Below are positions 21,538-22,819 of a stretch of 22,965 bases of DNA, in pieces (position 1 is the stretch's first letter; each line of letters opens with the position of its first letter). A program made the translations under genes and the position numbers. The notes beneath the pieces were generated by a model that saw only the letters and a program-made list of their open reading frames with translations, ran no database searches and had not been told where the DNA came from. Origin of the DNA: a virus; IMG/VR virus record IMGVR_UViG_3300027859_000082, positions 1-22,965 of that record. One strand, 5' to 3'.

Positions 21538-22248
21538 ATGGCTTTACCAGAGCTAAATACAGCTAGGTATAAGATGGAAATACCGTCAACTGGTCAAACA
21601 GTTACGTATAGACCATATCTAGTGAAAGAAGAGAAGATATTAATGATGGCTATGGAGTCGGATGATAATAATGTTATCGCCAACGCTACAATAGATGTTA
21701 TTAAATCTTGTTTTGAAGACGATATTGATGTTGAGGGCTTACCAATGTTTGACATTGAAGCTATATTCTTAGCATTAAGGTCAAAATCTGTTGGTGAAAC
21801 GATGGATTTAAAAATGAAATGTAATGAGGAAGGATGTAATGAAGTTAGTGACGTAGTTATTAACTTTGATGAGATTGAAATTCCAAAAGTGAATAATGAA
21901 CAAACTAATATTATGTTAACTGATGATGTTGGTGTAGTTATGAAATACCCATCGATGAGAGATATCGAAAAAATGGGTAATACTGATGGGAATGAAACAA
22001 AAGTAGCAATGACTATGATAATGGCTTGCATAGAATCTATATTTGATGCTGATGATGTATATCCAGTTGAAAATGAATCTATGAAGTCTTTAACTAGCTT
22101 TGTTGATTCTTTAACTAATGTACAATTTATGAAATTGTCAGAGTTTTTTAGAACAATGCCAGCTGTAAGTCATACTATTGCATATACTTGTGGATGTGGG
22201 AAAGAACAAGAACAAGAATTAAGAGGTCTCTCTAGTTTTTTTTCGTAG
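21538..22248 (+). CDS. gp26: Baseplate hub assembly protein gp26 (zero-frame product)
   Basis: A 236-aa member of the T4 baseplate-hub gp26 family (T4 gp26 is 208 aa). The N-terminal domain reads YRPYLVKEEKILMMAMES (about 25-42), the usual start of the family. Residues 55-85 are helical (IKSCFEDDIDVEGL, then FDIEAIFLALRSKSVGE). Two cysteine pairs, C95/C100 and C218/C220 (CGCG), could bind zinc. The protein ends GLSSFFS at a stop directly after a run of eight T. AGGAG lies about 8 nt upstream of ATG. Shifting to the -1 frame on the T run extends it to a 300-aa protein with a gp51-like tail, as tail assembly chaperones of other phages do. Confidence 0.88.
   Translation: MALPELNTARYKMEIPSTGQTVTYRPYLVKEEKILMMAMESDDNNVIANATIDVIKSCFEDDIDVEGLPMFDIEAIFLALRSKSVGETMDLKMKCNEEGCNEVSDVVINFDEIEIPKVNNEQTNIMLTDDVGVVMKYPSMRDIEKMGNTDGNETKVAMTMIMACIESIFDADDVYPVENESMKSLTSFVDSLTNVQFMKLSEFFRTMPAVSHTIAYTCGCGKEQEQELRGLSSFFS
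22236..22242 (+). promoter_or_regulatory. Slippery heptamer T TTT TTT for -1 frameshifting
   Basis: A run of eight T (22236-22243) gives T-TTT-TTT in the gp26 frame just before TCG TAG. Both tRNAs can re-pair perfectly after a one-base backward slip. The -1 frame has a stop (TAG, 22233-22235) immediately upstream and is then open for 67 codons. Confidence 0.7.
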
Positions 22249-22439
22249 GCCTTTCGCACGATAGTCTTGTAAACCATTATAAGACTAATTTCGCAATGAT
22301 GCAGCATCATCAATATAGTTTGACAGAATTAAATGATATGGTGCCGTGGGAAAGGGAAATATATATAGCTCTTCTCAAGGAACATATAGAGAAAGAAAAT
22401 GAGCGTATGGAGCGCGAACAACAAAAAATGAGGAGATAG
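22236..22439 (+). CDS. gp51-like C-terminal extension read by -1 frameshift
   Basis: From the slip site, the -1 frame encodes 65 residues beyond the shared Phe codons, ending with TAG at 22437-22439. The peptide reads VGLSHDSLVNHYKTNFAMMQ, then HHQYSLTELNDMVPWEREIY, then a charged helix LLKEHIEKENERMEREQQKM. The Leu-x-x-Met-x-Pro-(W/F)-E-R block is the style of gp51 and of the T-part of tail chaperones. There is no usable start of its own: the first ATG (22296) lacks a Shine-Dalgarno and would lose the conserved front. The fused product would be 300 aa (235 + 65). It fills the only gap otherwise seen between gp26 and the next gene. It would act as a hub assembly catalyst or chaperone rather than a virion part; that is inference from T4 gp51. 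Confidence 0.75.
   Translation, partial: FFFVGLSHDSLVNHYKTNFAMMQHHQYSLTELNDMVPWEREIYIALLKEHIEKENERMEREQQKMRR
22262..22287 (+). promoter_or_regulatory. 11-bp hairpin downstream of the slip site
   Basis: TAGTCTTGTAA pairs with TTATAAGACTA around an ACCA loop, giving eleven pairs with one G-U. It begins 19 nt after the slippery heptamer, longer than the 5-9 nt common for -1 stimulators, so it may help pausing or may be incidental. Confidence 0.5.
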
Positions 22440-22441
22440 TA

Positions 22442-22819
22442 ATGGCTGATAATCAAGACAACAGCAGAAATGAAGTAGAAATAGACTTAGATAAGTATAT
22501 GGCTATGATTGAAAAGCTTGACGAACAAGAAGACCAGATTAAAGAAATGAAAGAGGAAGCTAGGATTGCTGCAGAGCGACTAGGACCTCGTAAAAGAAAA
22601 TTCATGGATTTATTTTTGGATGACAATGACTTAAACGAAAAAGCAATCATAGGATTTATATCATTCTTTTTAATGATGTGTTTCGGAATCACCGACTTAG
22701 TGACAGCACTAGTATGGGATTTAGATTTAAAAGTATCTGAGACAATTTATACATCGTTTGTGGTAGTCACATTAGGTTCATTTGGTATATCAGAAGCTGG
22801 TAAAGCATTTGGTAAATAA
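22442..22819 (+). CDS. Two-helix membrane protein with N-terminal coiled coil
   Basis: A 125-aa protein I do not recognise by name. Residues 18-50 are a charged coiled coil (MIEKLDEQEDQIKEMKEEAR). Two hydrophobic helices follow: about 68-91 (IIGFISFFLMMCFGITDLVT) and about 101-117 (YTSFVVVTLGSFGISEAG), separated by DLDLKVSE. AGGAG lies about 7 nt upstream of ATG, overlapping the end of the gp51-like frame, so expression is likely coupled. The shape fits a small holin-like protein or a membrane-inserting tail-lumen protein released on infection. Position between the hub chaperone and a possible tape measure gene favours the second, without proof. Confidence 0.75.
   Translation: MADNQDNSRNEVEIDLDKYMAMIEKLDEQEDQIKEMKEEARIAAERLGPRKRKFMDLFLDDNDLNEKAIIGFISFFLMMCFGITDLVTALVWDLDLKVSETIYTSFVVVTLGSFGISEAGKAFGK

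Follow-up and report, generated by a model that had tools for sequence, protein, structure and literature searches.

In phage lambda (gpG/gpGT), as in other long-tailed phages (TAC-N/TAC-NC), the tail assembly chaperone is made as a short form and a long form that arises by a -1 frameshift. The gene lies between those for the tail tube and the tape measure protein, and a heptamer of the form X XXY YYZ stands just before its stop codon; the lambda slip site is G GGA AAG. In lambda the short form coats the tape measure protein, while the rarer long form brings in tail tube subunits (PMC5009743). The locus described here is alike in gene position, in the heptamer ahead of the stop and in its putative pair of short and frameshifted long forms, and differs from lambda in its slip site, U UUU UUY/U. 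Its gp26 protein is larger than lambda-type chaperones (236 aa), with an extra domain beyond an N-terminus weakly resembling the HK97 chaperone, and no similarity in sequence to chaperones of solved structure was detected.

The gp26 and gp51 proteins of T4 and T2 are homologous to the products of this locus, but T2 has two full-length genes on opposite strands where we find one gene and a probable frameshift. Tail chaperone genes of T4-like phages were reportedly identified by Vladimirov et al. in 2022. The passage of the PRFect paper that cites this work describes T4-like phages in which the short form has one gene and the long, fused form another, with no frameshift (PMC10885494), while the corresponding passage of the 2025 paper on phage Adele refers to poly-T slip sites in the TAC-N genes that T4-like phages carry (PMC12846349). 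The frameshift of the Adele tail chaperone itself belongs to other families, Vandenendeviridae/Andersonviridae. A preliminary description of the DNA studied here had called frameshift fusion of the gp26-gp51 pair not well described, which does not hold given what these two papers cite. Because of those citing passages, our finding is a further example of a trick known from lambda and raised before for T4-like phages, and it opens no new class of system. What the present analysis adds is the breadth of conservation, together with a test based on start codons and another based on coding signature.

The gp26 junction and its surroundings

The window, by which we mean the whole stretch of DNA analyzed, is a virus record of 22,965 bases carrying T4-like tail genes of a marine phage. 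Along its + strand it encodes, in order, a gp4-like head closure protein, a DNA end protector, a tail-tube-like protein (phrog_45, E 5e-38), gp26, the tail open reading frame (ORF), a 125-aa protein and the start of a tape-measure-like protein. The last of these was identified through the downstream 623-aa protein of a near-identical contig (phrog_1535, E 3e-6). The gp26/tail unit thus sits between the tail-tube-like gene and the tape measure gene, with one small ORF intervening before the latter. The 125-aa product of that ORF (22442-22819) has hydrophobic stretches, and a family search with it gave no convincing match; its own GAGGAG ribosome site lies within the end of the tail ORF, which itself has none. 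The features of the junction are as follows.

21538..22248, + strand: gp26 ORF, 236 aa, putative short tail assembly chaperone isoform (TAC-N, like lambda gpG), from PF12322, phrog_150 and predicted fold
22236..22242, + strand: slippery heptamer T TTT TTT in the gp26 phase; T TTT TTN in relatives
22246..22248, + strand: zero-frame stop TAG, one codon beyond the slip codons, read directly
22242..22439, + strand: -1 extension, 65 codons and a stop, putative gp51-like C-terminal domain of the long isoform, from phrog_634, relatives, coding signature and a helical model

The gp26 protein matches PF12322 (T4_baseplate; E 2e-62) and phrog_150 (E 6e-67). Read directly in the zero frame, its gene ends AGT TTT TTT TCG TAG, in which the run of eight Ts (22236-22243) extends one base past the heptamer. 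The -1 frame has a TAG immediately 5' of the run (22233-22235) and then stays open until the stop at 22437-22439. Counted from the re-read base 22242, the extension comprises 65 codons (22242-22436) and translates as FVGLSHDSLVNHYKTNFAMMQHHQYSLTELNDMVPWEREIYIALLKEHIEKENERMEREQQKMRR; the predicted fusion would have 235 + 65 = 300 aa, with GLSSFFFVGLSHDS as its predicted junction-spanning peptide in this phage. The extension matches phrog_634 (baseplate hub assembly catalyst, gp51; E 4e-27) and also the C-terminal end of phrog_150. Its earliest ATG is at 22296 (codon 19), and no Shine-Dalgarno sequence precedes it. This anatomy agrees with the preliminary description, which had noted eight Ts followed by TCG TAG at the end of gp26, a -1 stop just before the T run, 65 open codons of family-like sequence, and a second frame without a ribosome site of its own.

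Conservation in related phages

Sequence related to the tail was found in 552 phage records. For the survey we took loci bearing gp26 from viral contigs and annotated phages, 341 of which had at least 150 nt beyond gp26. A match to the tail HMM was present in 325 of the 341, and the best frame was -1 in every case (325/325). The 16 loci with no tail-HMM match belong to T2, Vibrio phage D531 and Ackermannviridae. When the 325 loci were collapsed to 203 distinct junctions of 180 nt, an in-phase heptamer was present in 201 (T TTT TTC in 121, T TTT TTT in 78 and T TTT TTG in 2), counts that are not to be read as probabilities because related sequences are not independent samples. It lies mostly 3 codons before the stop. 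In-phase T TTT TT[TC] is rare elsewhere in gp26 (only 14 in ~42,000 codon steps). The junctions span marine uncultured phages, Kyanoviridae, Aeromonas phage phiAS5, Vibrio phage ValKK3, Pootjesviridae of Rhizobium/Agrobacterium and Pseudomonas phage pf16. Among the Kyanoviridae, P-SSM2, S-SM1, S-WAM1 and Mosig have a closely similar gene neighbourhood and a -1 tail, with T TTT TTC as the slip site; in the window's group the site is T TTT TTT, and the ATG found directly behind the stop in some cyanophages is mostly missing.

The codon preceding the two slip codons ends in T in every junction listed for the largest three groups. Where it encodes serine in the window's group, it is AGT in 62/62 cases, against 21% AGT elsewhere in gp26. 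The remaining two of the 203 junctions, both from Ackermannviridae, keep the -1 tail and have no heptamer. In that family (loci L167 and L334-L348) and in Vibrio phage D531 (L164), a -1 tail ORF after gp26 persists with the tandem slip site gone (e.g., GAG ATT TTC ATT TAA), and D531 has a TAATG overlap. These phages may instead use a single-tRNA slip on TTC, or restart.

Over the 15 codons from the slip site to a conserved NF motif, the -1 frame of the window's group contains no stops, and single-base codon differences are synonymous in 81% of cases when read in that frame, in 18% in the gp26 frame and in 6% in the +1 frame. The extension in this group is therefore under purifying selection at the protein level up to the slip site. 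Over the same 15 codons, 60 of the group's 63 junctions have no ATG, GTG or TTG.

Frameshifting and its alternatives

A programmed -1 frameshift that produces isoforms of a G/GT-type tail assembly chaperone is very probably the explanation of this locus. It had been proposed in the preliminary description, and the uniform -1 frame of the tail, the near-universal heptamer and the lack of any tail start backed by a Shine-Dalgarno sequence argue for it; alignment of the T run and -1 frame across relatives had been suggested there as a check. The parallel drawn there with lambda G/GT is likewise strengthened by the overlapping -1 ORF, the heptamer and the position between tube and tape measure genes. 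We infer slippage, its rate and its role in assembly along the following lines. Most ribosomes would terminate at 22246 and release the 236-aa short form, whereas a minority would move back by one base on T TTT TTT as the two Phe tRNAs re-pair with TTT TTT. The slipped ribosomes would bypass the stop and add 65 residues from the -1 frame, giving a long form of ~300 aa. Like lambda gpG and gpGT, the two forms would together cover the tape measure protein and draw in subunits of the tail tube; by analogy with lambda, the short form may do the coating and the rarer long form may bring in tube subunits through its extra domain.

The principal alternative is that the tail has a small gene to itself (gp51), reinitiated after the gp26 stop from a start of its own such as the ATG at 22296. 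Many GenBank records, including those of P-SSM2 and Mosig, do annotate a separate gp51, and among the 201 heptamer junctions 61 have an ATG, GTG or TTG within 14 codons of the slip site. However, 140 have no start in that zone and none of the 61 starts (0/61) is preceded by a Shine-Dalgarno sequence at normal spacing, so that a separate tail gene with its own ribosome site is not supported; relatives with both a separate start and a ribosome site, which by the preliminary description would have counted against the frameshift, were sought and numbered 0 of 201 junctions. In the window's group, moreover, codons ahead of the first ATG carry the mark of protein-level selection in the -1 frame, and reinitiation at 22296 would drop 18 of the 65 residues, a conserved LSHDSL block included. 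Reinitiation also leaves the conserved T TTT TTN unexplained, and we consider it improbable.

The T run itself could in principle act on RNA polymerase rather than on the ribosome, such that mRNAs with one extra U would encode the fusion with no ribosomal slip. The eight Ts of the window come close to the runs of 9 As or Ts at which bacterial transcriptional slippage has been described (PMC5009743), but the runs among the 201 junctions are mostly short for this mechanism, with six Ts in 123, seven in 66 and eight in 12. The heptamer also keeps its codon phase in relatives, a requirement for slippage by the ribosome but not for slippage by the polymerase. Short runs and conserved phase therefore favour the ribosome, and slippage by the polymerase is very unlikely. 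Homopolymer runs are prone to sequencing indels, and the junction contains such a run, so a sequencing error, or else a decayed gene, was also considered as the source of the frame change. The same arrangement in more than 200 distinct junctions, from many metagenomes as well as isolates, refutes this, and the purifying selection on the tail speaks against it too; its probability is negligible.

Candidate stimulatory elements

Frameshifting of the dnaX type is stimulated by a Shine-Dalgarno sequence and a stem-loop, and both kinds of element have candidates flanking the heptamer.

22222..22226, + strand: Shine-Dalgarno-like AGAGG, ending 9 nt before the heptamer, a possible stimulator; spacing 8-11 nt in most relatives
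22262..22287, + strand: 11-bp hairpin, arms 22262-22272 and 22277-22287, loop ACCA; starts 19 nt past the heptamer

For -1 frameshifting, an internal Shine-Dalgarno sequence acts at a distance of 9-14 nt (PMC5009743), and the AGAGG here stands at 9 nt. The strength of such elements was compared with that in sequences recoded synonymously according to the codon usage of the group concerned (200 recodings). In two related groups it exceeded expectation (0/200 recodings each), while in the window's own group it did not (71/200). Since protein sequence and codon usage predict equal strength there, we rejected the element as independent evidence in that group.

The 11-bp hairpin of the preliminary description does exist, at 22262-22287, but its spacer is 19 nt, it is weakly conserved, and the predicted fold of the region is scarcely more stable than that of shuffled sequences (z -1.56). 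Among 30 relatives, 87% of cells are paired, but 9 of the 11 pairs fail in one relative or more, and three of these fail in 9-13 of the 30. An Rfam search returned nothing above gathering thresholds. For its poor conservation, its distance and the folding of the shuffled sequences, the hairpin was rejected as an essential stimulator; it is probably inessential, and we treat it as an unproven stimulator.

Protein structure and the relation to T4 genes 26 and 51

AlphaFold2 gave a model of gp26 with a pLDDT of 89, and the tail was modelled as a confident helical domain, also with a pLDDT of 89. Among the PDB chains compared using VIA-align, known or putative tail assembly chaperones gave the best matches to the gp26 N-terminal domain: 3fgx (Z 7.2), followed by 2ob9, the chaperone of HK97 (Z 7.1). 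Both have been grouped as tail assembly chaperones in published work (PMC9603447). The alignments have an rmsd of 4.0 over 84-85 residues, with Z below 8, where unrelated matches also occur, and a Foldseek E of 0.69. The predicted fold of gp26 thus weakly resembles the HK97 tail assembly chaperone, and we treat the match as supporting rather than decisive because of these values. A search of PDB sequences with the gp26 profile found no relative. Matches to the model in a library of viral structures were mostly to other gp26/baseplate hub proteins and added little on function.

The T2 proteins offer a more direct comparison. T2 gp51 (249 aa) matches PF12322 over residues 1-201 (E 4e-55) and the tail family phrog_634 over 147-246, so that phrog_634 matches the window's tail and T2 gp51 alike; aligned with hhalign, the tail profile matches T2 gp51 at 208-244 (E 4e-4, probability 36%). 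T2 gp26 has the PF12322 domain and gives no match to the tail profile. In T2 (locus L162, 2216-3642), genes 51 and 26 are divergent, on opposite strands and both full length. Because T2 gp51 consists of a gp26-like domain plus the tail, T4 appears to encode the short form in gene 26 and the long form in gene 51, separately and divergently. The suggestion in the preliminary description that these two genes form a G/GT-like pair gains support from the same domain composition.

We lean, by a narrow margin, towards a history in which poly-U -1 frameshifting is ancestral for the two chaperone isoforms across the T4-like supergroup (Kyanoviridae, several Straboviridae, Pootjesviridae and pf16-like phages). 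On this account the T-evens would have replaced it with two full-length genes on opposite strands, while Ackermannviridae would have kept the -1 tail and lost the tandem slip site. The analysis shows how marine T4-like phages probably make the gp26/gp51 pair, and the origin of the two separate genes of T4 becomes testable. It also suggests that many cyanophage records misannotate gp51 as a separate gene starting inside the conserved domain, or miss the frameshifted end. At loci L158 (2555-2689), L160 and L170, gp51 is annotated from an internal ATG (Mosig) or omitted (S-WAM1, ACG-2014d), and the conserved domain begins upstream, at the slip site.
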